Shown here one piece after another: positions 12,756-34,613 of a stretch of DNA of 64,000 nt. A program made the translations under genes and the position numbers. Numbering within the stretch: position 1 is the stretch's first letter; each line of letters starts with the position of its first letter. Source of the DNA: Verrucomicrobia bacterium LW23 (GTDB lineage Bacteria > Verrucomicrobiota > Verrucomicrobiia > Methylacidiphilales > UBA1321). The notes beneath the pieces were generated by a model, which saw only the letters and a list, made by a program, of their open reading frames with translations, made no database searches and was not told where the DNA came from. The stretch covers positions 62,001-126,000 of the forward strand of contig QAZA01000025.1 in the NCBI GenBank assembly GCA_003054695.1, in the 5' to 3' direction.

Positions 12756-15700
12756 TTAGTTCCCCAGCTTCTGCAGCTCCGTGCGGGAGGCGGAGTGGCC
12801 CTTGTCGGCGGCCTGCTTGTAATAGTCGCGGGCGGTCGCAACGCTGCGCGTAACGCCCAGGCCGTTGGCGTACATGCCGCCCAGGTAGTAATAGGCATCC
12901 AGGTCGCCCTTGGCGACGCCTTTGAGGTACCACTCACGCGCCTTGGCGTAATCGCGGGCAACGCCAACACCGTTGGAGTAGCAATAACCTACGTTGGTCA
13001 TGCCGCTTCCGTCGCCGCCGTCCGCGGCTTTCTGGTACCACTCCAGCGCCTTTGCCGCGTTTTGCTGAACGCCCTGACCGTTGCGGTAGCAGTAGCCCAG
13101 GTTGTTCATCGCGCTAAAGTGCCCTCGCTCCGCGGCCTTCTGGTACCACTCCACGGCTTTGGAGTAGTTAACGCTGACGCCGTAGCCGTTGTGATACATA
13201 AAGCCGAGGTTGTTCATCGCACTCGCGTCATTATTGTTGGCGGCCTTTTGGTACCAGTCCATCGCCTTGGCGTAATCCTGCGGCACACCATTGCCATGCT
13301 GGTAGGCGTAGCCCAGATTGTTCTGGCTGGCGGGGTGGCCCAGGTTGGCCGCCCTGGTGTAAAGCTCAAATGCTTTCGCCATATCCTTATTGCCGCCCAT
13401 ACCACTGCGCAGCAAAAAGGCAAGGTTGTACATGGCGGCGGCGTTACCCTGGTCGGCGGCCTTTTGATACCACTCGCGCGCTTTGGCGTAGTCGCGGTCG
13501 CCGCCCTTGCCTTCCTCGTAAAGGCTGGCCAGGTTTTTCTGCGCCACGGCGTGCCCCTTCAGGGCCGCCTTTTCGTACCACTCGCGCGCGGCGGAGGTAT
13601 CGCGATAGACGCCCTGACCCTGCTCGTACTGGCTGCCGATGCGGTTCATCGCGTCGATGTCGCCCTGATCCGCCGCTTTACGGAACCACTCCAGCGCTTT
13701 CGCGTAGTCGCGCGTTACGCCCACGCCGTCAAAGTAGCAGGTGCCCAGGTTATACTGGGCAATGGTATTGCCCTGATTGGCCGACTTGGTGTAGTACGCA
13801 AACGCCTTCGCCGCATCCTGTGCCACGCCGTTGCCGTACTGGAAGTTATACCCCGCCATCGACTGCGCCGGAGCGTGCCCCTGCTCGGCGGCCTTGATGT
13901 ACCACTCCTGCGCCAGCTTAAAGTTCTTATCCGTGCCGGCGCCCTTTTGATAGCAGTTGGCCACGTTGTATTGCCCCAGCGCAAGCCCGCCATTCGCCGC
14001 CTTAAGGTACCAGTTAAACGCCTTGATCGGGTCCTTCGTTACCCCTGCAAAGCCGTTGGCGTAGAGGGTGCCCAGGTTGTTTTGGCTGGGCGCATGTCCC
14101 TGGTTGGCGGCCTTTTCGTAATGCGCGGCGGCCTTCGCATAGTCTTGCGTCACGCCACCGCGGCCGTAGTAGTAGCTCTCCGCTGTCTCAAACAGCGCTT
14201 CGGGGGTGGACGCCTCGGCCTCTTTTCGCTTGCGACGCTCCTCTTCCTCCTTCGCCCGGGCCTCGCGCTCTTTGCGCACCGTTTCGGCGGCGGCAAATTC
14301 GTCGCGCTTTTTCTTCTCCAAACCAGGCAGGTAGACGCCGTAATAGTAGCCAGCGGCCGCGCCGAGTGTCGCCAGAATCATCAGCACAAAGGCAATAGCC
14401 GCGTACTTGACGACCTTGAGCAGGCCGCTTCCACCGCCACCACCACCAGCCACAGGAGCCGGCTGCGCGGCATGCGGGTAACCCCCATGCTGTTGCAAAT
14501 GAGCAGGTTGCGCGTACGGGACATATCCCGCAGGCGGCTGCTGCACGTAAGCGCCGGCGTACCCGGGTTGCACCGAAGCCGGCGGTGGTGGCGGCGGTGG
14601 TGGCGGAGGCGGCAATGGCGTCATTACCGTGGAGTTCGGGTTAATCCAGATATCCTCCACAGGCGCCGGCGGCTTTGGAACGGCAATGGGTTGCGACGCG
14701 CGCGGCCCGACCGCCTGCGGCGTATAAGGTGCCACCGCGGGCCCCTGAAACGGCCCCTGGACAGGGGCGGGAGTGCGCTCCAGTTGCCCGCTCCACACCG
14801 GCAGAGCCGGCGACGCGGCAGGGGCGATGGCAGGTTGTTGCTGATACTGAACGGGTTGCGCAGGAAGCGCGGGCGATGCTCCGGCAATGCCGCCGGCTTC
14901 CGCCGTCACAACGGGCCCGATCGGATTGGATGCAGGCCGTATCGTCGGCAGCTCCAGCCGCATACGAGCGTCCCAGCGCATCAGCTGGTTTAGGCTAAGT
15001 AGTTGGTAGGAAAACAGTTGCGCTTTGCATATGTCCACCATCAGCCGCGCGTTGCGTTGCAGTTGCGTGCTCTCCGCGTTGATCAGGATGTCGAAAAGTT
15101 TGCTCTTGTCCGGCTCAAGAAAGTCCGATTCGCGGAAAAGGAACTCGTTCTCGCCCTGCGCTTTACCGCCAAACTCCTCCCAAAGGCCGGGGTTCTCGAT
15201 CAGCCCCTCCAGCGCAATATGCGTGGCAAAACCGCTGAAATAGTCGTCGCTGTCGGCGGACTCCAGAGTGGCGTTGTGAATCTGCTCGTCCGTCGCGTCA
15301 AACGGATTGCGATAGCCGCCAATGCTGCCCGTAACCTTGGGCGGATGCACCAGGGTAGGAACATAGATGCTGTCATAATCCAGCAACACGCAGCGCAGCG
15401 AGCCGTCGGGTTGAGTGACAAACCGTATATTATCGTTCCATAAATCGCCGTGCGCGGTACTGTGCTTTTGCAGGGTGGCCAGCATGCTTCGCCAGGCCTG
15501 CAGGCACTGAGTCAGTTGCGCTGTGCGCTCGTCGGGCCCAAGTGCAAGTGCTTGCACAACAAGGTCTTTCGGAGATATGCCCCCAATCCAGTCCATGCGA
15601 AGCATGGGGTAGGTCTCCATCTGCCCCTGCATCAGCACCTGCACGCCCTCGTCAAAGTACTGAAAATCGGTAAAGTGCGCGGCAAGATCCGGCTTATCAA

Positions 15701-16091
15701 CAAGATAGCTCTTCAGGCTCTGGTAGCGGTCCCGCGTATTGCCGGGCACGCGCTGCGTCCAGAAACGCACCGCATAGCGCGAGCTTCCATCGTCCCCCAG
15801 CAGCGGAAACGCCACGGCAAACGCGCCGGAATAGTGCAACGGCTTTTTGAACTTGCTCAGCTTGGGCGCGCACGCCAAGCTCTCGGGATCCAGAAAATGA
15901 CGGCCGCGCACGGCAGCCTGATATTGAGCGATATCCGGAAACTTGCGGATGCCCTCGCTGGGGTTAAATGGTTTACGCGCAGAGGCTTGCGCCGGTGCAC
16001 CGCTTCCCGCGCCACTCGTCAGCGGCGGGCTGCCTGCTGCGGTGGTGCCGGCAATTTGCGGCGAGCCGGCGGGCTGGGGAGGGGTGCTCAT
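12756..16091 (-). CDS. Transmembrane Ser/Thr-kinase-like protein with 13 Sel1 repeats
   Basis: A 1111-residue protein. Residues about 40-340 form a kinase-like domain of the YegI/TerY-associated type: RYAVRFWTQRV (Arg at the usual beta-3 Lys position), catalytic loop HGDLWNDN (His214, Asp216, Asn221) and DYD (Asp238) in place of DFG. A Pro/Gln-rich linker (about 400-550, with a polyproline run near 490-500) leads to one transmembrane helix (about 555-583). A charged coiled segment (590-625) and 13 Sel1 repeats (about 630-1105) follow. The kinase is expected inside and the Sel1 array outside the cytoplasmic membrane. The N-terminal 340 residues are clearly paralogous to the protein at 27387-30521. 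It is the last gene of the minus-strand block. Confidence 0.88.
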   Translation of the reverse strand: MSTPPQPAGSPQIAGTTAAGSPPLTSGAGSGAPAQASARKPFNPSEGIRKFPDIAQYQAAVRGRHFLDPESLACAPKLSKFKKPLHYSGAFAVAFPLLGDDGSSRYAVRFWTQRVPGNTRDRYQSLKSYLVDKPDLAAHFTDFQYFDEGVQVLMQGQMETYPMLRMDWIGGISPKDLVVQALALGPDERTAQLTQCLQAWRSMLATLQKHSTAHGDLWNDNIRFVTQPDGSLRCVLLDYDSIYVPTLVHPPKVTGSIGGYRNPFDATDEQIHNATLESADSDDYFSGFATHIALEGLIENPGLWEEFGGKAQGENEFLFRESDFLEPDKSKLFDILINAESTQLQRNARLMVDICKAQLFSYQLLSLNQLMRWDARMRLELPTIRPASNPIGPVVTAEAGGIAGASPALPAQPVQYQQQPAIAPAASPALPVWSGQLERTPAPVQGPFQGPAVAPYTPQAVGPRASQPIAVPKPPAPVEDIWINPNSTVMTPLPPPPPPPPPPPASVQPGYAGAYVQQPPAGYVPYAQPAHLQQHGGYPHAAQPAPVAGGGGGGSGLLKVVKYAAIAFVLMILATLGAAAGYYYGVYLPGLEKKKRDEFAAAETVRKEREARAKEEEERRKRKEAEASTPEALFETAESYYYGRGGVTQDYAKAAAHYEKAANQGHAPSQNNLGTLYANGFAGVTKDPIKAFNWYLKAANGGLALGQYNVANCYQKGAGTDKNFKLAQEWYIKAAEQGHAPAQSMAGYNFQYGNGVAQDAAKAFAYYTKSANQGNTIAQYNLGTCYFDGVGVTRDYAKALEWFRKAADQGDIDAMNRIGSQYEQGQGVYRDTSAAREWYEKAALKGHAVAQKNLASLYEEGKGGDRDYAKAREWYQKAADQGNAAAMYNLAFLLRSGMGGNKDMAKAFELYTRAANLGHPASQNNLGYAYQHGNGVPQDYAKAMDWYQKAANNNDASAMNNLGFMYHNGYGVSVNYSKAVEWYQKAAERGHFSAMNNLGYCYRNGQGVQQNAAKALEWYQKAADGGDGSGMTNVGYCYSNGVGVARDYAKAREWYLKGVAKGDLDAYYYLGGMYANGLGVTRSVATARDYYKQAADKGHSASRTELQKLGN

Positions 16092-16321: not shown

Positions 16322-18454
16322 TCAGCCAGTCGCCTTGGACGCCCCGTCGCGCGGCGTTCCTGGGCCGAGCTTCATCGCAAGCAGGGGTGGGGCGGCGGGG
16401 TCGTCCGGGCCGGCCGATTCAACGCCGGACGGGGGCATGCCGGCCCGCGCGGCGACGGCGGCGCCCCCCTGCACGGCGCGCGCGATGGGGGCGGGGGCGG
16501 CGCCGCCAACAGCAAGGCCGCCGCGCATCGCCTCCAGGTACATCTCGCGAAACGGCCCTTGTCCCGCCATCAGTTCGGCTTTGGGTCCCTGGTCGACAAC
16601 GCGCCCGCGATCAAGCACCACAACGTGTTCGCACAGAGCAGTTTGCCACAAGATATCGTGATCGACAACGATAACGGTGCGACCCGTGCACGCCTGGGTC
16701 AGCGGCCCTGTTAGGGCGCTCTTTTCGAGGGGGTCGATGCCCGTCGTCGGTTCGTCCAGCAACAAGACGTGGGGGGAGTTGAGCAGCCCGCGCACCAGGG
16801 CAAACCGCTTTTCCTGCCCGCCGGAGAGGCGGCTGACGCTACCACTAAAGAACTGGGCATCAAGTGGTTGCGGACCATACGCGGCCGTGAGGATGCCCCA
16901 CAGCCCGTAGCGCTCGCACTCGGTGCGCAACTCGGTGTCGGTAACATCCGGCCGCCCGGCCAGAAAGTTGGTCCGCACCGTGCCCTGGAAAAAAGCGGGC
17001 CGCTGCGAGATAAGCATGCATCGGCTCCGGACTTCCGGAATCGGAAAGCCAGAAAGCGGTGTTTCATCCAGCAAGATGTTGCCGCTCTGCGGATTATAAA
17101 AGCGCAGCAACAACCGGAACAGCGTGGTTTTGCCCATGCCCGATGGCGCCACAAGCGCGGTAATTTTGCCCGCGGGAAAAAGGGCGGAGGCTCCGTCCAG
17201 AACCGGGTAAGGTGTTGCGTGCAAGGGGGATAGAGGAGTGGCGACCGACGCCGGCGGATAAGCGAAGCAGACGTCGTCCAGCCGCACCTGCGGTTGGGGC
17301 CCTATCGTGAGGGCCGGAGAGGCTGGGGCGCCGGAATCCCGCGCTTCTTCCGCTATCGCATCTCGTTCCGTATCAAGGAGTTCGCGCACAGCAAGGACTG
17401 CGGGGCTACAGATGGCAGCCTCCGCGCGCCAGCCGGCGATGGCTTCCAGGATCATCATGAATTGTGGCGTAAGTCCCACGATAACAACGAGAACGCCCGG
17501 CCTCAGGGCCGAATCCGCAGGGGAGAGCAGCACGATCGCGATGGCGGCGCCAATAAGGCAGGCCTGGACGAGGTCCGCCGGGATTCCCCGAAGCGTGTTC
17601 GCGGCTTCGATTTTTGCGGCTAGTGCAAGGCGTTGTTGCGCAAGATGTTGCGAGATTTCTGCGTGCTGCTGGGCAAAAAGGGCTTCTGCGCGCAGTACTT
17701 TCACCTCGTCCGGCGACGTCATGACGGACGTGAGGAGCGTATTCATCCGCTGCATCGCCGTCTGGACGCTGCTGCTAGCCGCATGCAGATCCGGCCCGCG
17801 CCGGTTGATCCACCACGACGCACCCGCGCCCAGCAGCGCCACGGCGCCAAACAGCAGCCAAAGCTGCGCCGGGGCGACGCCCTCGCCCGTACGTGCGGCC
17901 AGCTCGGCCAGACTCCACACGAGAACGCCCACAATCACCACAAAGGCAAGCACTTGCGCAGCGCCATCCACCAGCAGGGCGCGGGCGGAAACCTGCACCT
18001 GCGTGGTCAGCTGGCTGACGAGCATAACCAGCTCCCCGGGCGAGTTACCCTGTGCGTGAAACCATGCGGGATCGCGCCGCAACAGCGCCGTAAAGACTTG
18101 TCGTTGCAAGTCCATGGCCAGTCGGCTATCCAGCGCCGCGGCACAATATTTGTGCGCGTAGCCTAGCCACGTGCCCGCGGCCAGCACCCCCAGCCACCCG
18201 GCGAAGAGGGGTAGCAGCGAGGCCTTGCCGCCGGAGGCAGCGGCCTCGGAGGCGGATGCGGGGCCTGCGGCGGAAATCGTATCCGTAAGCCGCGCAAGTA
18301 ACAGCGTGGCAGCACCTTGCACAACGGCCAGGGTGAGGACGCTTAGCAAAAGATACAGCGCAATCAGCCCGCGTTGCTTCGCAAAAAGAGGGCGTGCAAT
18401 TGCCCACAGCATGGCCGCTGTGCGTCTTACCCCGGGATCTCCTGCCGCCTCCAT
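16322..18454 (-). CDS. ABC exporter, fused permease and ATPase
   Basis: A 710-residue half-transporter of the type I exporter architecture. A membrane domain with about six helices lies at residues 15-330. The nucleotide-binding domain has Walker A SGMGKTT near 435, the signature LSGGQEKR near 541, Walker B LLLDEPTTGIDP near 565 and a switch His in VVDHD. The permease part is divergent and I cannot name the substrate. The start lies 2 bases from the stop of the upstream FHA-like/ABC gene, so the two are probably translationally coupled and may act together. The C-terminus has an Ala/Pro-rich tail of about 80 residues beyond the ATPase. Confidence 0.88.
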   Translation of the reverse strand: MEAAGDPGVRRTAAMLWAIARPLFAKQRGLIALYLLLSVLTLAVVQGAATLLLARLTDTISAAGPASASEAAASGGKASLLPLFAGWLGVLAAGTWLGYAHKYCAAALDSRLAMDLQRQVFTALLRRDPAWFHAQGNSPGELVMLVSQLTTQVQVSARALLVDGAAQVLAFVVIVGVLVWSLAELAARTGEGVAPAQLWLLFGAVALLGAGASWWINRRGPDLHAASSSVQTAMQRMNTLLTSVMTSPDEVKVLRAEALFAQQHAEISQHLAQQRLALAAKIEAANTLRGIPADLVQACLIGAAIAIVLLSPADSALRPGVLVVIVGLTPQFMMILEAIAGWRAEAAICSPAVLAVRELLDTERDAIAEEARDSGAPASPALTIGPQPQVRLDDVCFAYPPASVATPLSPLHATPYPVLDGASALFPAGKITALVAPSGMGKTTLFRLLLRFYNPQSGNILLDETPLSGFPIPEVRSRCMLISQRPAFFQGTVRTNFLAGRPDVTDTELRTECERYGLWGILTAAYGPQPLDAQFFSGSVSRLSGGQEKRFALVRGLLNSPHVLLLDEPTTGIDPLEKSALTGPLTQACTGRTVIVVDHDILWQTALCEHVVVLDRGRVVDQGPKAELMAGQGPFREMYLEAMRGGLAVGGAAPAPIARAVQGGAAVAARAGMPPSGVESAGPDDPAAPPLLAMKLGPGTPRDGASKATG

Positions 18455-18456
18455 AA

Positions 18457-21153
18457 CTACCCGGCGCTGATGGACTTACGCAGGCCCATGTACGCCGCGC
18501 TCAGGCAAATACCCATCCAGCCGGCGATGATCAGCGTGCTGGTAAACGCGTAGCCCCAGATGACGCCGCCGCGCTCGGTGCGCGTCAGCACGTCCTCGCG
18601 GCCGATGTAGACGGCGCGGCTGAGGACCTGCTGGCGGCGCTCCGGGCTGAAATTGACGACCCACTGGCGCTTGCGGTTCTTTTCCACCTTTATGGGATCG
18701 TCGTAAATCAGTTTGAGAGAAGAGGTTGTGGCGACGCCGACCGGGATGGTGCCGCCGTCAATCGTTGTCTCCCACCGCAGCGCGCGCTGGCCCATGTAGT
18801 CGAAATCGACCGTAATGTTTTGCCACGCCAGCCCATTGGGGTGGGTGCGCAGCACCATGTGGTCCTTATTAAAAAAGCCCTCAATCGACGGCTTGGCGGT
18901 GGTGGTAAACGGGTTTTGCTCGACCGTCAGCCCGGGCAGGCGAAAGGGGTCTTCCTCCAGGAACTGGGGCACGCGGCTCTGGTTGCTCAGGAGCGGCAGG
19001 TCGGAGTCGGTGGTGAGGGGGGCGATGGGTTCCGACGGTTTATCGCCGTCGGCCCTGTTCAGGAACTGCTGTTGTTCGTAGTGGCGCAAGTCGTTGGTGC
19101 GGGTAAGGAGGTTGATGTGTGTTACCTCCATAAGTCGTTGCGCTGCAGCGCTTGGCATCAGCGCGACAACATGGCGCACCCACGGTTCCATCTCGGCCAG
19201 GCCCACCACAACGCCACCGCCCAGCAATTGCGGGATGAGGATGATCGGAATAAGAAATTGCGCTTGTGTTGCGGAACTGGACAGGGCCGAAACCGCCAGA
19301 CCGATCGTCACGGCGCCCACGCTAATCGCCACAAGCACAACAAGTTGCACGGCAACCTGCTCGGCGGCGGCGCGGCGCATGGCAAAGGCGTCGGACTGCG
19401 CGGACGGGTCGGGTTCGGCGTTCGGATCGCTGTTCGGCTTTGCAGGCTCGCCGGCAAGGAGGGTGAAGATAGGGAAGTGCTTTTGGTTGGGGAAGGTTTC
19501 ACCCGCTGCCTTCGGATGCACCGCGGCAATCGTACAAAGCACAACCACCACAAGCAGAAGGCTTTGCATCGACGTAATTATGCTCCAGAAAAACGTCTTG
19601 CTGGCCAGGTAGGTGGCGCATCCCAGCCCCGCAATCGCCTCGCGCCGGAAGATGTCGATTTCCTTTACGATCTCCTGCGCCGCATTGCTGCAGCCAAACC
19701 AGAGGGCGGAAATGACAGCAAGGAACGAGGCGAGGATGGGGTTGGCTGTCATTACGCCAATCATAAAGCCAATGACAAGTGCCTGGCCAACAAGCACTAA
19801 CAGCGTCATCGGGCTGGCGAACAGCAGTTTGGTGCATCGCATTAGCAGTGTGACAAAATTTCGCACTGCGGAAGTCCGCCGTCGCACCGGCGCGGTGCGC
19901 TTTCGCCCGGCCGCCTCTGGCTCCGGCGGGGGAGGGGGCGGCGGAAAGAACCCGGGCGGTCCTCCGGCAGGCGCAGGAGGCTGGGGCGCAGTGGGTTGCG
20001 CCGCGCCGGCTCCCAGCGCTTCGTCCATCCACGAGCGTGCGCGGGTGGGGCCGGCCGGGCGGGCGGGGGCGGAGGTGCCGGAGGGCGCAAGGTCGACCGG
20101 TGGAGGCGGGATCTCGTTTTTGAGGAGCAGGCTGTAGATCTTGTCCACGCTGTCCACGCCAAAGCGTCGGCGCGAGTCCGACGGGGTGCCCGCGTAGAGG
20201 ATTCCGCCCTTGTGCACAAACCATAACTGGCTGAACAAGTGCACGTTATAGAGAACGTGGGTGGTGCAGATAATCGTGCAGCCGCCGGCGGTGAGGCGTG
20301 CCAGGAGCATCATCAGCTCCGCCTCGCGGGAGGGGTCGAGGCCGGAGGACGGCTCGTCGAGCAGCAGTACTTTGGGCTGATCGATAAGCTGCAAGGCAAT
20401 GCTGGCGCGTTTGCGCTGGCCGCCGGAGAGGTTGCCGACGCGGCGGTTGGCTTGCTCCGTAAGTCCCACGCGCTCAATGGTATGGTCCACCAGGCGCATC
20501 AGCGCCTCGCGACGGTCGCCGCGGCTGCGGCGCAGCTGGGCGGAGTAGATCAGGGCCTGGCGCACGGTCAGCTCGTGGTGCAGCAGATCCTCCTGCGGCA
20601 CGTAGCCGAGGGTGCCGGGCGGGATCGACATGACGTCGTCGCCATTGATGAGCACGCGCCCCGTTTCGGTGCCCCACTGTCCGCATAAGAGCTTGAGCAG
20701 TGTGGACTTACCCATGCCGGAGAGGCCCAGCACGCCAATAAACTCGCCCTGGCCCGCGCGCAGTGTGGCGGGGCTGAAAACGGGCGGCGTTTTGCGGCTG
20801 ATGCTTTCGGCAAGGATGGCGGGAATCGACGCGTCGACGTGGTCCGCGCGTTCCTCCAGCTGGTCGCCCTGATAGATGTAAACCGCTCCGGGCGCAAGAG
20901 TTATGCGGTCGCCCAGGTTAAGCAGAATGCCAGCCTGGGGGCAGGGCGCGTTGTTGACGATGCAGCGCGCGAGGGGCACGGCGCGGTGGACGCTGCCTTC
21001 TGGCTCCAGCCACAGGTGCTCCTGGTAAACGGCGCGCGTGTCGTCGGCAATGTCGGCGCGGCGCACGCCTGTGGTGTTGCGGAGCGTCTGCTGATGATTA
21101 TCCCCCGTGGGGCAACCGATAACGATAGGCGAGCCGTGGGACAGGTAGATCAT
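18457..21153 (-). CDS. FHA-like/ABC ATPase/ABC-2 permease fusion (ABCG-type)
   Basis: The 898-residue protein begins with about 100 residues that look like a forkhead-associated fold: VIG near the start, a QEHLWLEPEG strand, then NNAP and LGDRITLAPG before VYIYQ. The canonical phosphothreonine-contacting Arg and Ser are not obvious. An ABC domain follows: Walker A GLSGMGKSTLL (about 139), LSGGQRKR (about 241), Walker B LLLDEPSSGLDP (about 265). After a Pro-rich linker (about 360-425) comes an ABC-2 permease with about six helices and a large loop near residues 670-850. FHA-ABC-ABC2 fusions are known and usually sit beside Ser/Thr kinases, as here. The substrate is unknown. Confidence 0.88.
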   Translation of the reverse strand: MIYLSHGSPIVIGCPTGDNHQQTLRNTTGVRRADIADDTRAVYQEHLWLEPEGSVHRAVPLARCIVNNAPCPQAGILLNLGDRITLAPGAVYIYQGDQLEERADHVDASIPAILAESISRKTPPVFSPATLRAGQGEFIGVLGLSGMGKSTLLKLLCGQWGTETGRVLINGDDVMSIPPGTLGYVPQEDLLHHELTVRQALIYSAQLRRSRGDRREALMRLVDHTIERVGLTEQANRRVGNLSGGQRKRASIALQLIDQPKVLLLDEPSSGLDPSREAELMMLLARLTAGGCTIICTTHVLYNVHLFSQLWFVHKGGILYAGTPSDSRRRFGVDSVDKIYSLLLKNEIPPPPVDLAPSGTSAPARPAGPTRARSWMDEALGAGAAQPTAPQPPAPAGGPPGFFPPPPPPPEPEAAGRKRTAPVRRRTSAVRNFVTLLMRCTKLLFASPMTLLVLVGQALVIGFMIGVMTANPILASFLAVISALWFGCSNAAQEIVKEIDIFRREAIAGLGCATYLASKTFFWSIITSMQSLLLVVVVLCTIAAVHPKAAGETFPNQKHFPIFTLLAGEPAKPNSDPNAEPDPSAQSDAFAMRRAAAEQVAVQLVVLVAISVGAVTIGLAVSALSSSATQAQFLIPIILIPQLLGGGVVVGLAEMEPWVRHVVALMPSAAAQRLMEVTHINLLTRTNDLRHYEQQQFLNRADGDKPSEPIAPLTTDSDLPLLSNQSRVPQFLEEDPFRLPGLTVEQNPFTTTAKPSIEGFFNKDHMVLRTHPNGLAWQNITVDFDYMGQRALRWETTIDGGTIPVGVATTSSLKLIYDDPIKVEKNRKRQWVVNFSPERRQQVLSRAVYIGREDVLTRTERGGVIWGYAFTSTLIIAGWMGICLSAAYMGLRKSISAG

Positions 21154-23660: not shown

Positions 23661-24458
23661 TTACTGAGGCGTTGAGGCGAAGATGAGGAGCTTAAGGAAC
23701 TCCGAAGGCGACGCGTTGAACAGAAAGCCGCGCGCGCCCGGCTGCGGATCGCAGTCCGCCTGCCGGGCGCTGCGCATCAGCGGCGGGGGCAGGGGGCTGC
23801 TGATGCTGAAGAGAAAGCTGGCAAACTGGTTGTGGCGAAACAGGTCGTCGGAGGCCGGGTAGAGGATCTCCTTGCCCTCCGTGGCGGCGGCGATGTGCAC
23901 GTTAAAGAGCAGCACGTTGCCGTCGTTGGTGCCCAGGTTGCGAAGGCGCTCGGCCGCTTTGGATGCGGCGGCGTAACTGTTTGGCGCGCCGTCGGTTATG
24001 TTAACGACGATGGGCGGAAAAGCGTTCTCCATGCCTTCCTCGCTCAGCTTGAGTTTGCATAGGTCGTAGATGGCGTCGAACGCTTTATCCATAGGCGTGC
24101 GCCCGCGGGCGCGGGGCTTGACCCACACGGGCTGTTCCTCCTGCCAGGAGCCCATGCTAAATACTTGAATCTCAACGGTATCGCCCACTTTGGCAGCCAC
24201 ATCGCTCACCAGGCCGTGCACGTGCTCGTTCAGGAAGGCTTCCTGCCCGCGGTCGCTCTCGCCGTAGGAGATGACGCTGAGAAAGCAGCGGTCGCGGATC
24301 TCGTCTCCGTTGATGCAGCGGTTGATGAGCTCCGCAATAGCTTTGTTGATGCCCTGCGCCGCAAATTCTGCCTTGGATGTGCCTTCAAAATAGGGCTCGG
24401 CCATCGAGAGGGATGTGTCGAGAAGAAAGCAGATAAGCCCGGGGCACCGGGCGCTCAT
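23661..24458 (-). CDS. TerY-like von Willebrand factor A domain protein
   Basis: A 265-residue cytoplasmic protein consisting of one vWA domain. The metal-ion-dependent adhesion site is intact: DTSLS (Asp14, Ser16, Ser18) and a later Asp in VNITDGAPNS. The LICFLLDTSLSM start and the SYGESDRG and TPMDKAFDAI segments are typical of TerY/YegL proteins. I prefer the ATG at 24458 (MSARCPGL) because the fold starts at once; an in-frame ATG at 24479 would add seven residues. vWA-PP2C-kinase neighbourhoods define the TerY-P triad, thought to form a metal-dependent scaffold for phosphorylation signalling. Confidence 0.88.
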   Translation of the reverse strand: MSARCPGLICFLLDTSLSMAEPYFEGTSKAEFAAQGINKAIAELINRCINGDEIRDRCFLSVISYGESDRGQEAFLNEHVHGLVSDVAAKVGDTVEIQVFSMGSWQEEQPVWVKPRARGRTPMDKAFDAIYDLCKLKLSEEGMENAFPPIVVNITDGAPNSYAAASKAAERLRNLGTNDGNVLLFNVHIAAATEGKEILYPASDDLFRHNQFASFLFSISSPLPPPLMRSARQADCDPQPGARGFLFNASPSEFLKLLIFASTPQ

Positions 24459-24583
24459 AGTTGCGGAGTAATTGTGCATAAGGTGCGATGTGATAGGGCT
24501 TTAAGCTTAAGTGACGTAGTTTGTAGACGGTTGGCAAAGAAAAGTTGCTGGAAAAAGCGCCGCGTCGCAGGCGATGCGGGGCG

Positions 24584-26376: not shown

Positions 26377-27369
26377 TCAGCGCGCTTGTTCGGGCAAGCT
26401 GGGCTTTCTGCTTTTCTCTTTTCCGCCCGGTGCGGCCGGCTTTTCCACTTTCTGCGCGTTGCGCACATCGGGCGCCGCGTCGAGATGGGCCGGCATCTTT
26501 GGCGCTACGCTGGGGGGATCCTTGACGCCGGTGAGGCGGTAGACTTCGGCTTCCGTCGTGCGTGTCGTCAGCAGCCCGGCCAGGTATTTGTCGGTTTTGG
26601 GAAGGTCCAGCACGGATTGCAGGGCCTCGACATTCTCCAGGCGGCTGAACAGAACGCGTTGCACCTTATAGAATTCCACCTCTTTTTCCCCATACCCCAT
26701 CTTCAGGTTCGAGGACCAGAACCGCACCATCCTCACCGGCTCGCCGCCGCCCTCGGGCCGCACCACGCGGGTGCCCAGGTACACCACGCTGTGGCCGGAT
26801 TCCTTGCCGCCGATCTCCCGCGTCCACCAGATCTTCATGAAGTCGCCGGGGCGCGCCTCTTTCCAGGCGCTGAAGTTGCGGCCCAGGCGAAGCTCGTGGA
26901 ACAGGCGCGCGGTGCCCGGGCCGTTGGCGTTCCAGCGGCCCCACACGCCCGTACCGTCGGGCTGCGCGCGCACGGGCAGGGCGTTCAGCTGCTCGCGCGT
27001 CAGCGTCAGGCGCCCCGCGGCGATGCATTGCTGCACGACGTCCAGAAACACGTGGTACGTGGCGCCGGAGCAGAAGCTGGGCTGCGCCGTCTCGGGCCGC
27101 AGCTCCAGCTGGGGCAGCGCGGTGCCGTCCGTCAGGGTTATGGAGCCGCGCAACGCCATCGCGCCCGGCTTGCGCGCATCGTACCCGCCGCCGGACGGCA
27201 TGCGCCGCACAGCGGCCAGAATCATCGCGTTGTAATCCGTTGCGGTTTCCCCCATCGGGGCCTGCGTCTGCGCATGCAGCTGCAGCGGCGCGGCAACGGC
27301 AAAAAGCGCTCCGCCCAAGGCGGCGGCAGTGACGACGAGTCGGAGGAGTCGGCAGAGGATTATTGACAT
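26377..27369 (-). CDS. Secreted NlpC/P60- or CHAP-like cysteine enzyme
   Basis: The 330-residue product has an N-terminal signal peptide (hydrophobic 8-28, likely cleavage near LHAQ, residue 34). The mature part shows a papain-like Cys/His pattern: Cys100 in PSFCSGATYHVF, RPGDFMKIWW, then His193 in SGHSVVYLG and a polar residue in RFWSSN. That order (Cys, RPGD, GHxxxYLG) is characteristic of NlpC/P60 and CHAP amidases/peptidases that cut cell-wall peptides, but the sequence is divergent. The C-terminus is Pro/Lys-rich. It lies 17 bases downstream of the Ig-like kinase gene and is probably co-transcribed with it. It would act in the periplasm or at the cell wall. Confidence 0.65.
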   Translation of the reverse strand: MSIILCRLLRLVVTAAALGGALFAVAAPLQLHAQTQAPMGETATDYNAMILAAVRRMPSGGGYDARKPGAMALRGSITLTDGTALPQLELRPETAQPSFCSGATYHVFLDVVQQCIAAGRLTLTREQLNALPVRAQPDGTGVWGRWNANGPGTARLFHELRLGRNFSAWKEARPGDFMKIWWTREIGGKESGHSVVYLGTRVVRPEGGGEPVRMVRFWSSNLKMGYGEKEVEFYKVQRVLFSRLENVEALQSVLDLPKTDKYLAGLLTTRTTEAEVYRLTGVKDPPSVAPKMPAHLDAAPDVRNAQKVEKPAAPGGKEKSRKPSLPEQAR

Positions 27370-27386
27370 GGGTGGTGCAGAGAGAG

Positions 27387-30300
27387 CTATCGGAGCGACA
27401 TCACGGTTTCCTCAAAGGAGGCAATATACCAGACGTCGTCGGACTTCACCAGCTTAAGCAGCATAACGGAGGTGCCTTGCGTTGTTTTGTTGTTATAGTC
27501 GTACGACATGGTTATCTTTACCGTGGCATCATTCTGTTGATAACTTTCCACTTCCAGCTTTGTTATGGTATAGTTGCGGGATTTGTATGTGTTGATCAGC
27601 TTTTGCCTGTCGGCCTGTATTTGTTCCCGCTTCACCGTCGCCATCACGTTTTCCGATCCATAATAGGCCTCCGGCGCAAACATGGCCGCCCAGTCCGCGG
27701 CCCGATTGGAGCCTTGAACCAGCGCCCACTCCCGCAAAAACGTGTTGAACGTGGAGTCCCGCCCCGCGCGTTGCTCGGCTGTCAGAGGAAGATTCTTTGC
27801 GTTCTCCGGGGTTATCGGCCCGCTGCTGCTGCCGGCACCGCCGGGCGGGGCGGTCGCCTCCACGTTAAAGTGCAGCACAACGCGGCGGCGCTCTTCGCCA
27901 AGTTGCATCTCCACAACGCTTTGCGTGGTGCCGGCGGCTGTTGGCGTGCCGGTAATTGTGCCCCGCGCATCCATGGATAGCCCCGGTGGCAGCGGGTTGT
28001 CGGCGGCGATGGCGTAGCTGAAGGCTGTGATGGGGTAGGGGCTGGAGGCTTCCAGTTGAGGGGAGAGCAGGATCGCGGATTTGTTCTGCCTGATGTTGAT
28101 CCGCGTAACATAAGCAGGGAACCTGGGTTGTGGTACCTTAAAGGGGATTTCCACTTGATGCATATCCCCCGCGCGATTGACAACAATCACTGCATTATCG
28201 TTGCCGGAGCGTAGGATTGTTCCAGTAATCGTACCGGACAACGGGTCCAGCCGTATCCCGGGCGGAAAATCCTGTTGCCGGAAGATATCGCCCTCCTTCA
28301 CGCCCCGCGGCGTCAGTCGTATGCTGCTGCCTATCAGCAGGTTGCCGAGCGCCGTTGCGGCCTCGGGGTAGGTGACGCGCGACAGCGCGGGCGCGGGCTC
28401 CACGTGAAAGTAAAGCGTGTGCGTTACCGGCGGCGCAATCCCGCGCGCCACACTCACCAGCACCTTGTACTCGCCGGCATGCGTCCGGCCGCTGATTACC
28501 CCGGTCGACTCATGGATACGCGTGCCCGGCGGCAGCGCTTTGGCGGTAAAGCGGTCCCCCGCGGTGGCGCCTTCCGGCCGCGTCTCAAAGTACTCGCCGG
28601 CGGTAACCTGGATGTTGGCGTTGGAATAGGTGGCCGGCCGAGCTGAGCCCGGTGCAAGCAGCTTGTTGGCCGCCGTAAACTGCGGCACAAACAGCACCGC
28701 CGCGCCAATAGCCACTACCACCACCGTCGTGAGAGCCAGCGCCCCGGCAATCAGCGTTACCGTCATGCCCCGGCCACGCGGGACCGGTGGCATGGGCGTA
28801 GTTGCCGGCTGATAGGGCGTAACCGGCGCAACGGCCGCGGTGCCGGGGGGCGAGGCAAACGTGGCGGTGCCCGGCCGTAGCGGCGCCACAGCAGCGTGCG
28901 GCGCGGGGGCAACCGGGGCTACGCCGGGGCATATCAGCTCGTACCGCTGCGCCACGGGCAGGTGGCTCTGCGCGCACTTTTGCTGGGCCATGCGCACCTG
29001 CTCCTGCGAGTACACGGGGCCGACGACCGCCCAGCCGGACTCCTGGCGCACAACCGCAAGCTCGCGCAGGCCCGCGGCGTGCAGTGATTCGGCCAGCGCG
29101 GCGTAGGCGGCCGGCTGCACGGAGAGCTCGTCGGTAAAGGGTGACTCCGTCTCGAGGCACTTCTCCAGGGCCAGCGCCCGCTGGTCGCCATCGCGCACCA
29201 GGCCGCCGATGGCGAAGGAGTTGCCGGGGCGCGGCGTAATGAGCACTTCCGTCATCCCCTGCTTGTGCAGGTGCGATTGCAGCTTCAGCCGCCAATCCAC
29301 CGGTGGGGCGGCCCGCGCGGCCAGTGGGGAGCCCAGGCTGCGGCCGGGCGCCTGGTCGGACCCGGTAGAGGGCAGGCCCAGGCGCGTGCGAGCATCCCAG
29401 CGGACGATGTCGCTTAGCGGCAAAAGGCTGGTGCTGAGCATTTTGCGACGGCAGATATCCGTCAGCAACTGCGCGTTGCGCCGCAGGTTGGTGCCCTCGC
29501 TGGAGGCCAGGCGGATGAAGATCTTGCTGGAGTCCGGCGCGAGAAAATCGGCTTCGCGGAACAGGAAGGCGTTATCGCCTTCATCGTTGGCGCCAAACTC
29601 GCCCCACAGCTCGGGATCCTCCGCCAGCGCCTCCAGGGAGACGAGCATGGCCAGGCCGCTGAAGTAGTCGTCCGTGGCGGCTGACTCCAGGCTTTCGGCA
29701 TTCTCCGCCAGCGCCTCCCTGGAGGTGGCGGCGGCCACGGCGGCGGCGGCGTCGAACGGGTTGCGATAGCCGGCCACGCTTGCCGTAACTCGCGGTGGAT
29801 GAATGAGATCCGGCACGAAAATGCTGTCGTAATCCAGCAGCACGCATCGCATATCGCCCCCTACCAGGCTGGGGACAAAGCGGATGTTGTCGTTCCACAA
29901 ATCGCCGTGGGCCACGCCGTGGTGCTGCATGGTAATCAGCATCTTGCGCCAGGCTTGCCGCGCTTTGTCCAGGGAGGGGCCGCGCTCGGCGGGGGGGAGG
30001 GTGAGACAGCGTCGCACGTACTCCTTGGGGGATTCGCCGGCAATCCACTCCATGCGCAGCATTGGGTAGGTTTGCATCTGCCCGGCCATCAACACGTTAG
30101 CGCCGGCTTCCACGTACTCAAACTCCGAGAAGTGGGGGCGCAGGTCTACGCACTCGCGCATGTGTTGCGCAAAGCGGTTGTAACGGCGCACCGTGTCGCC
30201 CGGCACGCGCTGAATCCAGAAACGCACCGCATAGCGGGTGATGCCTCCCGCGTCCTCCAGGGGAAACGCCACCGCAAACGCGCCGGAGTAGTGCAGCGGC

Positions 30301-30521
30301 CGGCGCATTTTGCTGAGCCTGGGCGTGCACGCGCGCGCCAGCGGATCCAGCAGGTGCCCGCCCTGAACCGCGGCGCGGTACTGCGCGATATCCGGGTACT
30401 TGCGGATGCCGGCCGCCGCTGCGGACGCCGAAGCGAACGCCTTCGCGGCGTCGGACTGGGGGGAGTCCGGCGCGGGCTCGGGCGCGGGCGAAGGCATGGG
30501 GGCTGCGGGCGCGTTGGTCAT
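27387..30521 (-). CDS. Transmembrane Ser/Thr-kinase-like protein with putative-Ig and NTF2-like domains
   Basis: A 1044-residue paralogue of the 12756-16091 kinase over its first ~340 residues: both share RKxPDIAQY and PLHYSGAFAVAFPL. Kinase motifs are RYAVRFWIQRV, HGDLWNDN (His205, Asp207, Asn212) and DYD (Asp230). A small alpha/beta region lies near 400-530. One transmembrane helix at about 580-610 separates it from the outer part. That part holds putative-Ig (He_PIG-like) modules at about 635-910, marked by LPPGTRIHESTGVISG, FPPGIRLDPLSGTITG and LPPGLSMDARGTITG. A C-terminal SnoaL/NTF2-like domain follows (about 925-1044). The distal half replaces the Sel1 array of its paralogue, suggesting a different sensed ligand. 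Confidence 0.87.
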   Translation of the reverse strand: MTNAPAAPMPSPAPEPAPDSPQSDAAKAFASASAAAAGIRKYPDIAQYRAAVQGGHLLDPLARACTPRLSKMRRPLHYSGAFAVAFPLEDAGGITRYAVRFWIQRVPGDTVRRYNRFAQHMRECVDLRPHFSEFEYVEAGANVLMAGQMQTYPMLRMEWIAGESPKEYVRRCLTLPPAERGPSLDKARQAWRKMLITMQHHGVAHGDLWNDNIRFVPSLVGGDMRCVLLDYDSIFVPDLIHPPRVTASVAGYRNPFDAAAAVAAATSREALAENAESLESAATDDYFSGLAMLVSLEALAEDPELWGEFGANDEGDNAFLFREADFLAPDSSKIFIRLASSEGTNLRRNAQLLTDICRRKMLSTSLLPLSDIVRWDARTRLGLPSTGSDQAPGRSLGSPLAARAAPPVDWRLKLQSHLHKQGMTEVLITPRPGNSFAIGGLVRDGDQRALALEKCLETESPFTDELSVQPAAYAALAESLHAAGLRELAVVRQESGWAVVGPVYSQEQVRMAQQKCAQSHLPVAQRYELICPGVAPVAPAPHAAVAPLRPGTATFASPPGTAAVAPVTPYQPATTPMPPVPRGRGMTVTLIAGALALTTVVVVAIGAAVLFVPQFTAANKLLAPGSARPATYSNANIQVTAGEYFETRPEGATAGDRFTAKALPPGTRIHESTGVISGRTHAGEYKVLVSVARGIAPPVTHTLYFHVEPAPALSRVTYPEAATALGNLLIGSSIRLTPRGVKEGDIFRQQDFPPGIRLDPLSGTITGTILRSGNDNAVIVVNRAGDMHQVEIPFKVPQPRFPAYVTRINIRQNKSAILLSPQLEASSPYPITAFSYAIAADNPLPPGLSMDARGTITGTPTAAGTTQSVVEMQLGEERRRVVLHFNVEATAPPGGAGSSSGPITPENAKNLPLTAEQRAGRDSTFNTFLREWALVQGSNRAADWAAMFAPEAYYGSENVMATVKREQIQADRQKLINTYKSRNYTITKLEVESYQQNDATVKITMSYDYNNKTTQGTSVMLLKLVKSDDVWYIASFEETVMSLR

Positions 30522-30684: not shown

Positions 30685-31563
30685 TCAGTGCACGTCCATC
30701 TCTTTGGATCCACGGCGCGGCGCCTTGGGGGTCTGTGGCTGCGGCGTCTTGGGCGAAGTGGTGCTCTCCACGGGTTTGGATTGAGGCGCGGGCGTCGGCG
30801 GTGTCGTTGCCGGGGCGTTGGTGTTGGCGGCGCCGGAGGAGGGAGGCTGCGCGACGGATGGCGCGGACGCAGGCGGCGAGCTATCGGAAGTAGTTGTGGG
30901 GGAGGAAGTTGAGCCGGTCCCTGGCGCAACGGGAAGGCTGCCCGGCGCCACCGCCTCCGCACGCGGAATTTTAGGGAAGAACGCGGCCTCCACCTCGGCC
31001 ATCGTCGGGAACACCCATGTTCCGGTCGAGTCGGCGCGCACCTTCATATCCAGCACCAGGTTGACGTTGGTAAGTTGTACGGAGACGCGTACGATGGACT
31101 CGAAAGGGAACGAGCGAACCTTGTCCGACATCAGCCTCACGATCTCCCCCTCCGGCGCGGTGGCCACTTCGGCGCCGTTAAAGCCCAGAGCGGTGGAGGG
31201 GGGAACGGGGGCAAGCAGGGCGGCGACTTTCTCCTTGGTAAAGTAGGCTTTCACCTCTTCGTCCAGCTTTTTGGCGGCCGCCGCAAAGTTGGCCTTGAGG
31301 TCGGCCTCGCTGATAGGTGGGGCTTCGCGGACAACGGGCTTGCTCTCCAGCTTGTCCTTCAGCTCGGTAATCTCGGCTTTGGTGGAGGCTTTCAGCGCTT
31401 CCAGGTCGGCTTCCGCCTTCTTTTTGTCCGCCTCGGCCTTCTCGGCCTGGGTGGTGAGGGCCTGGACTTTGTCCTCCAGCCGCTTCACGGCGTCGCCCGT
31501 GCAGCCGGTGAGGGCGAAGGTGGCCAGGAGAAGGGCGGAACTCCATGTGGTGATTGTCTTCAT
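30685..31563 (-). CDS. Lipoprotein with N-terminal coiled coil
   Basis: From ATG 31563 the product has 292 residues with a lipoprotein signal: MKTITTWSSALLLATFALTGC, lipobox Cys21. A charged coiled coil follows at about 28-85 (KRLEDKVQALTTQAEKAEAD and similar). A globular region with mixed strands lies at 90-215, and a Pro/Ser/Thr-rich low-complexity tail runs to the end. An in-frame start nine codons upstream (31590) would spoil the signal peptide, so I reject it. I do not recognise the globular part. It is likely anchored to the outer or inner membrane. It lies between the Ig-like kinase and a small secreted protein in the minus-strand block. Confidence 0.75.
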   Translation of the reverse strand: MKTITTWSSALLLATFALTGCTGDAVKRLEDKVQALTTQAEKAEADKKKAEADLEALKASTKAEITELKDKLESKPVVREAPPISEADLKANFAAAAKKLDEEVKAYFTKEKVAALLAPVPPSTALGFNGAEVATAPEGEIVRLMSDKVRSFPFESIVRVSVQLTNVNLVLDMKVRADSTGTWVFPTMAEVEAAFFPKIPRAEAVAPGSLPVAPGTGSTSSPTTTSDSSPPASAPSVAQPPSSGAANTNAPATTPPTPAPQSKPVESTTSPKTPQPQTPKAPRRGSKEMDVH

Positions 31564-31602
31564 ACGCGTTGCGGCTTCAGTCGGCTTCATCAGGTTTCAG
31601 TA

Positions 31603-32028
31603 TTAGCGATGTCCCGTAACCACACATACGGAGCCGGCGCCGCGTGCGGCGTGTACACGTACGAGGATGTACCCCGTCCACCGCGCCCGCTTGCTTACCG
31701 CGCCAAAGGAGCGATCGGTGGTGTCAAACGCCCAGCGGTCGCCGTCTTCGTCGTAGCTGTACATATCCACGTCGATGACTTTGGAATCCCCCACGGCGGC
31801 AAAGATATACGTATTGCCTTTAAATACAGGTATCCGGATTATCGCTTCTTCACCTTCGGCAAGCGTAGATGTGTAGTAGCGCGGATGCAGGAAGTAACGA
31901 TTGCTGAAGTTTTGTTTAAAGAATTTAAGCGCCGCCGAACGTGCTTCCGGCACATCCGCACGGGATTGCTGCGGAACAGATATGGAAAGCATTGCTGCGA
32001 TAAGGAGGTAAGCAATGTATTTATACAT
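31603..32028 (-). CDS. Small secreted protein of unknown function
   Basis: A 141-residue protein with a clear signal peptide (MYKYIAYLLIAAMLSISVP, cleavage near SRA-DVPE). The mature domain is beta-rich with aromatic residues (YFLHPRYYTSTL, GNTYIFAAVGDSKVIDVDMY) and DxDxD-like acidic stretches (DEDGDRW). This is loosely like pre-peptidase C-terminal (PPC) beta-sandwich modules. No enzyme motif is visible. It starts downstream of a long inverted repeat and is 39 bases from the lipoprotein gene, so it is likely in the same transcript. It would act in the periplasm. Confidence 0.7.
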   Translation of the reverse strand: MYKYIAYLLIAAMLSISVPQQSRADVPEARSAALKFFKQNFSNRYFLHPRYYTSTLAEGEEAIIRIPVFKGNTYIFAAVGDSKVIDVDMYSYDEDGDRWAFDTTDRSFGAVSKRARWTGYILVRVHAARGAGSVCVVTGHR

Positions 32029-32142
32029 AACAAGATAAAAGCGGTTCGTCCGGACACCCTTCTTCTTGCAGCTTAACGGTCAGGACGAATAGATAAGAGT
32101 TAATACGAATAGATTCAATACGGCCAAATCCTTGATTCCTGC

Positions 32143-32271
32143 CTTTCTGTTACTCCCTCCTTAGCGGCTTCGTCCCCCTTAGCGTGATAATCTCTGTTTC
32201 TGATATCGGGAAGAACAGAATTTGATCACGCTAAGGGGGATAAAGCCGCTAAGGAGGGAGTAACAGAAAGG
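32143..32271. repeat. Long inverted repeat, 47-bp arms
   Basis: Arms 32143-32189 and 32225-32271 are reverse complements with 45 of 47 positions matching; the loop is 35 bases. Within each arm CCTTAG/CTAAGG-type words recur. The element sits in the 318-base gap between two minus-strand genes of the island, and a related single arm occurs at 26281-26316. It could be a miniature mobile palindromic element or a strong transcript structure. Confidence 0.9.
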
Positions 32272-32287
32272 TAAGTATCTCTTCGCT

Positions 32288-32325
32288 TCCGCACTCCCCG
32301 CGATTCGCTGCTTCGAGAGTGCGGA
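32288..32325 (-). terminator. Hairpin after the 32347-33231 gene, possible terminator
   Basis: TCCGCACTC and GAGTGCGGA form a perfect 9-bp stem with a 20-base loop, just downstream (minus strand) of the stop of the secreted helical protein. There is no strong T-run, so termination would be weak or factor-dependent. Confidence 0.4.
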
Positions 32326-32346
32326 CGGGACAGACATAGAGGCGCC

Positions 32347-33231
32347 TTACTTGATCGCCGTGACGATCTTGTCGGTCGCGGCCTTGATCTTCAGCACTTC
32401 GTCGCGCGTAAAGGTGGCGTCCTTGTCTTTCTTGCCTGTCATAATGTCATTCAGGGCGGTGATCTGCTCAGTAATCAGCACGACAGTGGGCAGCTTTTTC
32501 AGGTCGGCCGGCAGAGATTCAATGCGCTTGGAGATGCCCTTGAGGGTGTTGGCCTGGCGGAAGACTTTGCTGCGCTCGGCGGTATAGTTGGCCTCAGTGC
32601 TCAGCGCGGTGGCGGTGGTGCGCAGGCCCTGAAAATAGGCGGCGATGGCCATCAGGTTGCCCAGGCCCTTCTCTTCTTCGGTGCCCTCTTCCAGGCGAAT
32701 CTGCACCATAATGGCAAGCTCGTTGAGCTTGAAAACCACGCCGAGCACGTTGCCTTTCAGCAGTTCCTCGGAGAGTTTTGTCGCTTCGTCCAGGTCCTCC
32801 TGCTTGGCGCCGATGGTCTGCGCCATCTTCATGACGACGGGGGCGGTGCGGGCGACGGTCTGGTTATCCTTGGCGTAGCTGGCGATGATGGCATCGCTTA
32901 CCTTGACGCCGAGCAGCAGTGCGGTATCGCCGCTTTTGGTAAACGTGCGGGTGGCGGGCACATCGGGGGCGCAGGCCTGGCCGGCCGTCTGCCACTCGGT
33001 AAGGGGAAGTTTGGTGGCGTTGACCGCGGTCACCATCTCGATGGCCGAGGCGATGCCCATGTCGACATCCTTATCCTCCACCTTGGTGGGCTCGGCGTTT
33101 TCCTTCTTGTTTGGCGCCACATCGGTGCCGGTGCTGGGGGTGGCCTGCGCAAAGGTGGTGACGGGCGCAAGGGCCAGCGTGGTGCCGCACGCGGCGGCAA
33201 GCAGACATGCAAGTGAGCGTGATTTGGACAT
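32347..33231 (-). CDS. Secreted helical protein of unknown function
   Basis: The 294-residue protein carries a signal peptide (about residues 1-29, ending TTFAQA). The mature part is almost entirely alpha-helical, with no transmembrane segment after the signal. A conserved-looking stretch is TEWQTAGQACAPDVPATRTF near residues 80-98. No known domain is apparent to me. Helical regions such as LDEATKLSEELLKGNVLGV and ESLPADLKKLPTVVLITEQ suggest a bundle. It lies between the zinc ribbon gene and the long inverted repeat, on the strand of the island. Confidence 0.75.
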   Translation of the reverse strand: MSKSRSLACLLAAACGTTLALAPVTTFAQATPSTGTDVAPNKKENAEPTKVEDKDVDMGIASAIEMVTAVNATKLPLTEWQTAGQACAPDVPATRTFTKSGDTALLLGVKVSDAIIASYAKDNQTVARTAPVVMKMAQTIGAKQEDLDEATKLSEELLKGNVLGVVFKLNELAIMVQIRLEEGTEEEKGLGNLMAIAAYFQGLRTTATALSTEANYTAERSKVFRQANTLKGISKRIESLPADLKKLPTVVLITEQITALNDIMTGKKDKDATFTRDEVLKIKAATDKIVTAIK

Positions 33232-33383
33232 GATAAAGTGGGTTAAACAGGGGATCTTACAGCTTGAGCAGGGTGATGGCTATGCATAGAGAGCGAGACA
33301 CAGATATTGACCCTCTAAATGCAAAGCCAGTCGATATCGTTTATAAAAACGAACGCACAAGGCCGCGAATGAAGCGGCGCTTA

Positions 33384-33665
33384 CTAGATGCAGAAGACGC
33401 TGCCGCAATACCAGCAGGAGTAATAGTAATAGCGGTAACGGCTAACCCAACAGATGTTGACGCGACCGCAGTACGGGCAGCGCACACGGCGGCGGCCGCG
33501 GGCACCGGTTTGAGGCTCTTCGTCCGCAGTCTCTTCGGCGCCCTCGGCGGCGATAGCGGAGAAGAACGCGGGCGCGCCGGCGGCCTGAACCGGTCCGGAT
33601 TTTTCGGCCTCCTCGCGGGTGACGCGAGTGGCGGTGCAGCTTGCTTTAAATGAACGCACTTTCAT
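33384..33665 (-). CDS. Small protein with C-terminal zinc ribbon
   Basis: A 93-residue protein: an acidic, Ala/Glu-rich N-terminal half, then a basic patch (GARGRRRVR) and a C-terminal zinc ribbon in which CPYCGRVN and CWYCG supply two CxxC knuckles separated by a Tyr-rich linker. Zinc ribbons often accompany vWA/PP2C/kinase triads as protein- or nucleic-acid-binding modules. Nothing indicates secretion. The ATG at 33665 gives a sensible protein. The location between two genes of the same strand and the intact CxxC pairs argue that it is real despite its size. Confidence 0.65.
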   Translation of the reverse strand: MKVRSFKASCTATRVTREEAEKSGPVQAAGAPAFFSAIAAEGAEETADEEPQTGARGRRRVRCPYCGRVNICWVSRYRYYYYSCWYCGSVFCI

Positions 33666-33746
33666 GGGGTGAGCTGGTTTTTTGGTGGTCTGAGTTTCTT
33701 TTGCTATGGTTGAGACGATTCGACTGAAAAAGTTGAAGCAATTACC

Positions 33747-34613
33747 TCACGCAACCGCACATTTTTGCGCTTCCGCCCCGCTCTCGTCCTCGGCGGGGGT
33801 TGCGGCGGAGAAGATCAGCGCGGTCGCGTCGGCTGGCGGCATTGGCCCGCGTGTGCCCAGCAAAAGCGCCAGAGCGGCGGTAACGCGCGCGGTGGCCAGG
33901 CTGGCGCAGGCTTCGGAGTCCCCGGGCTCCGCTTCGGCCTCGCCCTGCACAACGTCGCTCCCCGCACCGGGTTTGAGCGCGGAGGCGTCCGGGATCGGCG
34001 CGAGCATGCCGGATGCCGCCAGGCGGGGGGGATCGGCCAGGCGCAGCAACGCCGTTGGGGTGCTTTCCGGCACCACGTGCTCGGCCGCCACGACAGCAAT
34101 AGCGCCCGGCGCCATGGCGGGGAACTGCGGGCGCCGTGCATCCACGTTGCTGCCGGCCGCGACGACGTGGACGCCCAGCGTTACGGCCTGCGCAACCCAC
34201 TGCGTGTGAAGGAGTTCGGCGCCTTCAGATCCGTCGGCCAGGCTAAGGTTGAGGATCTCATAGCCCAGCGCCACGGCATGCAGCGCGGCGGCGCGGATCG
34301 CCTCGGGCTGCGCGCTCAGGTCCGGCGCCAGCACGCGGAAGCTCCCGAGCTGGCAATGCGGGGCCAGCGTGCGGATAATCGCGGCGACCTCGGTGCCATG
34401 GCCGCATACATCCCCAAAGGGAGCCGGCGCGGTGTCCCACGCCAGATCGTGCAGCAGCTGGGTGCCGGCCAGCAGTGGGTGGGTGGTGTCGATACCCGAA
34501 TCGATGACGGCGACGCGCACCGGGCGCAGGCCCGCCGTACCCGGTAAGGCGTTGGCCTGGGGCTCCCCATTGCGCGGCGGGAGGTGTGGGGTCGTCGGAT
34601 TCGCCTGGTTCAT
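33747..34613 (-). CDS. Subtilisin-like (S8) serine protease without signal peptide
   Basis: A 288-residue protease domain with the catalytic triad Asp38 (VAVIDSGID), His72 (CGHGTEVAA) and Ser238 (CASLATARV, replacing the usual GTSMATP). The oxyanion-hole segment is AAGSN rather than AAGN, so Asn156 is shifted by one. There is no signal peptide, pro-domain or transmembrane helix; the N-terminus is a Pro/Asn-rich stretch of 25 residues. It is therefore expected in the cytoplasm, unlike most subtilases. I chose ATG 34613; an in-frame TTG at 34622 is less likely. It is the first gene of the minus-strand island, 81 bases upstream of the zinc ribbon gene. Substrate unknown. Confidence 0.85.
   Translation of the reverse strand: MNQANPTTPHLPPRNGEPQANALPGTAGLRPVRVAVIDSGIDTTHPLLAGTQLLHDLAWDTAPAPFGDVCGHGTEVAAIIRTLAPHCQLGSFRVLAPDLSAQPEAIRAAALHAVALGYEILNLSLADGSEGAELLHTQWVAQAVTLGVHVVAAGSNVDARRPQFPAMAPGAIAVVAAEHVVPESTPTALLRLADPPRLAASGMLAPIPDASALKPGAGSDVVQGEAEAEPGDSEACASLATARVTAALALLLGTRGPMPPADATALIFSAATPAEDESGAEAQKCAVA

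Follow-up and report, generated by a model that had tools for sequence, protein, structure and literature searches.

A TerY-P-type kinase–phosphatase locus with predicted membrane helices beside an FHA-ABC exporter pair in Verrucomicrobia bacterium LW23

Introduction

The TerY-P triad consists of a vWA protein, a PP2C phosphatase and a Ser/Thr kinase, with the YegL/YegK/YegI-like proteins of E. coli as representatives. The literature presents TerY-P both as a switch that senses metals and as a module for defence, with kinases that carry zinc-ribbon or OB-fold tails (PMC11090510; PMC7699616). Ser/Thr kinases are also encoded next to FHA-ABC exporters: in Mycobacterium tuberculosis, pknF shares an operon with Rv1747, the gene of an FHA-ABC exporter, and PknF positively modulates this transporter (PMC3908365).

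Here, we analyzed a 64,000-nucleotide stretch of the Verrucomicrobia bacterium LW23 genome (hereafter, the window), in which genes resembling both systems lie side by side. Our results partly support a joint system built on a variant form of TerY-P; TerY-P itself and the pairing of kinases with FHA-ABC exporters were already known.

Results

Gene order and spacing of the island

The ORF coordinates place thirteen ORFs one after another on the minus strand (12756–34622), in the order and on the single strand described in a first-pass annotation. From 5′ to 3′, the island encodes a subtilase, a 93-amino acid zinc-ribbon-like protein, sec294, s141, a lipoprotein, the kinase K2, an NlpC-like protein, psK, a vWA protein, PP2C, an FHA-ABC-2 protein, an ABC exporter and the kinase K1. 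A LolA-like gene and cydB/cydA flank the island upstream, and a gene with a metallo-beta-lactamase fold flanks it downstream. From the subtilase to the lipoprotein, the intergenic gaps measure 81, 152, 318 and 12 bases; those that follow measure 163 (lipoprotein to K2), 17 (K2 to NlpC-like), 251 (NlpC-like to psK), 104 (psK to vWA), 28 (vWA to PP2C), 97 (PP2C to FHA-ABC-2) and 230 bases (ABC exporter to K1). The 2-base spacer reported between the two ABC genes was confirmed at 18455–18456. The 318-base gap between sec294 and s141 contains an inverted repeat of 55 nt (32134–32279), whose arms are 91% complementary and separated by a 36-nt spacer; it is possibly a MITE- or REP-like element. Promoter and terminator scans of the island gave signals not clearly above chance.

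The first-pass annotation had treated the genes as one unit, a view that finds no support here: gaps of 152, 318, 163, 251 and 230 bases and the inverted repeat break up the run. The main rival to a joint function is that independent units stand in a row by chance, with joint function limited to the core. These units would be the diverged TerY-P core, the pair of FHA-ABC and exporter genes, envelope genes that stand alone, and a subtilase/zinc-ribbon pair unrelated to the rest. We regard this as a substantial possibility, on the doubtful side of even. The spacings of 150–318 bases and the repeat are what it would lead one to expect, whereas the short gaps of 28, 97 and 2 bases in the core are not.

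A diverged TerY-P core with intact catalytic residues

PADLOC models matched all components of a TerY-P system: the TerY model matched the vWA protein (23661–24479; 1.3e-40), the PP2C model matched the phosphatase (21251–23632; 3e-14), and the STK_OB model matched both K2 (27387–30521; 9e-30) and K1 (12756–16091; 5e-27). Pfam by itself did not detect the kinase or PP2C domains, and profiles that we made from other TerY-P loci agreed with PADLOC on the vWA protein, PP2C and both kinases, so that their earlier assignment to TerY-P stands. We then compared residues at columns conserved at ≥85% among TerY-P relatives. K1 and K2 keep the HGD, N and DYD positions, the MIDAS of the vWA protein (DxSxS, T, D) is intact (D21, S23, S25, T128 and D163), and the metal-site Asp residues of PP2C are kept (D176 and D237). 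Elsewhere, K1 and K2 share departures from conserved columns (W in place of Q after HGDL, and changes at the G, YQHP and R positions). The vWA protein lacks the conserved DGAGG stretch. The core has thus diverged, with its catalytic residues intact. The vWA and PP2C genes are adjacent, yet two genes separate K1, and two others K2, from that pair. Both kinases lack a zinc-ribbon or OB-fold tail and carry instead a TM helix with Sel1 repeats (K1) or He_PIG domains (K2).

We scanned genome contigs with a kinase alignment and obtained 79 TerY-P loci, taken from the best 80 of 559. The vWA protein alone, used as query, returned no relative in the first genome-contig scan, and in the vWA tree its placement, beside another long branch, is unreliable. 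In the same genome, L016 (7949–10477) holds another TerY-like vWA protein, 842 amino acids long and with a C-terminal TM helix, apparently without a kinase or PP2C alongside. A genome of the same order (G032) carries a canonical vWA-PP2C-kinase triad (L015, 8627–11946).

K1 and K2 share 59% identity in their kinase domains and are sisters in the kinase tree (support 100/100), with a branch length of 2.68. Their best relatives reach just 33% identity among the matches listed in the genome-contig scan. As judged from their sequences, K1 and K2 are duplicates on a long branch.

Predicted membrane helices in both kinases and the phosphatase

In K1, the kinase domain (approximately residues 45–370) is followed by a Pro-rich linker, a predicted TM helix (residues 560–578) and Sel1 repeats (Pfam, 8.6e-131). 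K2 combines its kinase domain with a predicted TM helix (residues 594–612), He_PIG Ig-like domains recognized by Pfam and a weak SnoaL/NTF2-like C-terminus. In PP2C, a predicted TM helix (residues 437–455) precedes a charged, Pro-rich tail. Each of the three proteins thus has one strong helix, C-terminal to its kinase or phosphatase domain. The kinase-helix-Sel1 and kinase-helix-Ig/NTF2-like orders suggest that the sensor domains are extracytoplasmic. We infer this topology, since the helices were called from hydropathy only and the charges flanking them in K1, K2 and PP2C showed no positive-inside bias.

A helix after the kinase domain is common in TerY-P kinases (36 of 98 ORFs); a TM helix was present in only 4 of the 42 TerY-P phosphatases found (L020, L025, L034 and L037). 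One supported clade (100/95) unites the kinases from these four with the L026 kinase, and it sits within the same larger clade as K1 and K2. The kinase of L025 (3549–5999) also bears a C-terminal FGE-sulfatase domain (7.6e-65).

These architectures bear on the idea of an anti-phage TerY-P defence module with decorations, whose kinases answer infection and whose exporters are passengers. TerY-P-like modules do protect against T7-like phages (PMC7699616; PMC11090510), and the PADLOC matches are in keeping with such a role. However, the defence-tested kinases have OB-fold tails (PMC11090510), which are not seen in K1 or K2, the helices and likely extracytoplasmic domains better fit envelope sensing, and none of the thirteen proteins was identified as a nuclease or a restriction partner. 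We consider a defence role improbable.

The FHA-ABC exporter and its relatives near kinases

Pfam identified an ABC ATPase fused to an ABC-2 membrane domain in the FHA-ABC-2 protein (18457–21153). It likewise upheld the first-pass calls of a second ABC exporter, a half-transporter with a membrane domain and an ATPase that resembles MsbA/CydCD (16322–18454), and of a subtilisin-like protease. Using the membrane part of the FHA-ABC-2 protein as query, we found relatives at 38–45% identity in five genomes (G152, G201, G186, G176 and G121) and weaker ones in two (G380 and G214). Three of the relatives (L178, L179 and L182) are Pfam-positive for FHA. The window protein itself had no Pfam FHA hit, and the earlier FHA-like label is kept here because its N-terminus aligns with these Pfam-positive domains. 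This N-terminus aligns with the second FHA domain of the two-FHA relatives, the first copy being missing, so that the window protein appears to have a single degenerate FHA domain. In its pThr pocket, IGC replaces IGR and the Ser of SxxH is replaced; both the Arg and the Ser are kept in L179, L180, L181 and L183. Without these phosphothreonine-reading residues, a simple step in which a kinase phosphorylates and the FHA domain binds is doubtful. A predicted structure of the N-terminus was set aside, as the model was too poor to use.

Hanks-type kinases were present at 4 of the 7 FHA-ABC loci in the phylum versus 2 of 19 control loci (one-sided Fisher approximately 0.03, calculated by hand, for loci that are not fully independent). 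Together with the PknF-Rv1747 precedent, this agrees with the earlier statement that FHA-ABC genes occur near Ser/Thr kinases. One locus, L178, brings together a kinase with Sel1 repeats, a relative of sec294 (1.7e-5) that lies between a kinase and the FHA-ABC gene, a second kinase and a relative of s141 (2e-8). The joint recurrence of FHA-ABC, kinase, sec294-like and s141-like genes in L178 argues against a chance row of independent units. Given L178 and the Hanks-type kinases near FHA-ABC relatives, the island resembles an FHA-ABC/kinase locus with kinases of another family.

psK and the envelope genes

psK (24584–26125), an orphan with a Pro-rich tail, had been called pseudokinase-like. It matched no kinase profile, and hhalign results were weak or non-significant. 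Its single-sequence model (pLDDT 41) shows a strand-helix order resembling a kinase N-lobe. Protein kinases make up nearly all of the 50 Foldseek matches listed, but no match is significant, and because kinases are abundant in the PDB we take this list as suggestive only. A pseudokinase fold is therefore plausible but unproven on this low-confidence model. No psK relatives were found in 241 genomes of the phylum.

The predicted secreted NlpC-like protein (26377–27369) was named by eye, and the name gained no backing from Pfam or the PDB, neither of which gave a match. An alignment of its nine-member family shows a conserved Cys and a conserved His. Counting the genome studied here, the family is present in 24 of the 241, and most of the members sampled from one genus have it. 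An in-frame TGA flagged in its homologs proved to be the terminal stop in the two checked (G090 and G076).

Signal peptides and the LTGC lipobox of the small envelope proteins were likewise seen by eye only, so these calls stay putative. The coiled-coil lipoprotein (30685–31590) is weakly similar to a lipoprotein upstream of the L179 FHA-ABC gene (E 0.008, six-protein set). Weak relatives of the small predicted secreted protein s141 (31603–32028) occur in 24 further genomes of the class, in one case near an FHA-ABC gene; sec294 (32347–33231) is also predicted to be secreted.

At the 5′ end (33384–34622), the subtilase-family protease (33747–34622), QhpE-like below the cut-off, and the 93-amino acid orphan with two CxxC motifs at its C-terminus (33384–33665) seemingly form a separate pair, and their membership in the system is doubtful. 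The zinc ribbon named earlier was recovered only as a weak match (0.0015, below the cut-off), and the protein has no relatives in 188 genomes of the class. Both this end of the island and the NlpC-like gene seem to have been recruited separately. The subtilase's resemblance to QhpE, its small Cys-rich neighbour, the two ABC exporters and the several predicted secreted proteins would also suit an export and maturation cluster, in which the subtilase and exporters process and export small proteins under kinase regulation. We judge this improbable, because none of the thirteen proteins was identified as a radical-SAM or other maturase and the zinc-ribbon peptide is an orphan located approximately 12 kb from the ABC genes.

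Conservation of the gene set

Lack of joint conservation in relatives, which the first-pass annotation named as grounds for refutation, holds in part: none of the other genomes searched, a sample without same-genus members, carried the full set. At the 79 TerY-P loci, psK, the NlpC-like protein, the lipoprotein, s141, sec294, the zinc ribbon and the subtilase had no match, and ABC matches appeared at few loci and look like unrelated ATPases. As many of these loci are short and all come from the best-scoring portion of the scan, this absence does not amount to absence everywhere. Relatives of the vWA protein were not found in 11 same-family genomes; the orthologous cydA-cydB flanks were found in such genomes, yet the loci there lack the island genes. 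No TerY-P-type kinase was present at the nine NlpC-like homolog loci examined. This lack of conservation allows for chance juxtaposition, as does the NlpC-like family standing alone elsewhere.

Discussion

The reading that we favour, tentatively and at a little short of an even chance, is a lineage-specific membrane-spanning TerY-P relay that acts on the exporter pair. K1, with its Sel1 repeats, and K2, with Ig/NTF2-like domains outside, would be duplicated receptor kinases that monitor the state of the envelope or the extracytoplasmic space and phosphorylate targets in the cytoplasm. A role as adaptor or substrate would fall to the vWA protein, and resetting the signal would be the task of the membrane-anchored PP2C. 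Output would likely run through the FHA-ABC-2 protein and its neighbouring ABC exporter; the lipoprotein and the small secreted proteins would act on the envelope side. The PADLOC matches, the conserved catalytic residues and the single helix in each of K1, K2 and PP2C support this relay, as do the rare PP2C helix with its related kinase clade, the kinase proximity of FHA-ABC loci, L178 and the PknF-Rv1747 precedent. It is weakened by a gene set that occurs together nowhere else, the replaced Arg and Ser of the FHA domain, kinases that are not beside vWA-PP2C, several gaps above 150 bases and a topology drawn from hydropathy. The earlier proposal of one phosphorylation-controlled system therefore retains its TerY-P core and its kinase/FHA-ABC precedent, and loses conservation of the set and the phosphothreonine-reading FHA residues.

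A bolder version, which we consider less likely than not, is that TerY-P here took on a transmembrane receptor form, its sensor kinases duplicated and its phosphatase anchored, that supplanted the Hanks-type kinases of an FHA-ABC exporter system and governs export through the envelope. If TerY-P does span the membrane here, this would suggest an envelope-receptor role besides metal sensing and defence, and pairing with FHA-ABC exporters, if true, would give TerY-P a testable output. Triads with helix-bearing PP2C in other phyla open the question to comparison beyond one genome.

Such triads occur in Poribacteria (L020 and L025), a member of Thiotrichaceae (L034) and the cyanobacterium Dolichospermum (L037). 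They share the PP2C helix with the window; the kinases of L020, L025 and L034 also have a TM helix, and those of L020 and L025 carry TPR repeats. Unlike the window, they lack matching FHA-ABC or envelope genes, and the window kinases lie on a much longer branch. Compared with the TerY-P triad in general, the three components match the PADLOC models and keep their catalytic residues, whereas the window has two kinases, neither adjoining PP2C, TM helices with Sel1 or Ig/NTF2-like domains in place of zinc-ribbon or OB-fold tails, a helix in PP2C and joined ABC genes. As in PknF-Rv1747, a Ser/Thr kinase neighbours an FHA-ABC exporter, but the window kinases are of TerY-P rather than Hanks type, the exporter has one apparent, degenerate FHA domain instead of two, and the locus adds a phosphatase and a vWA protein.
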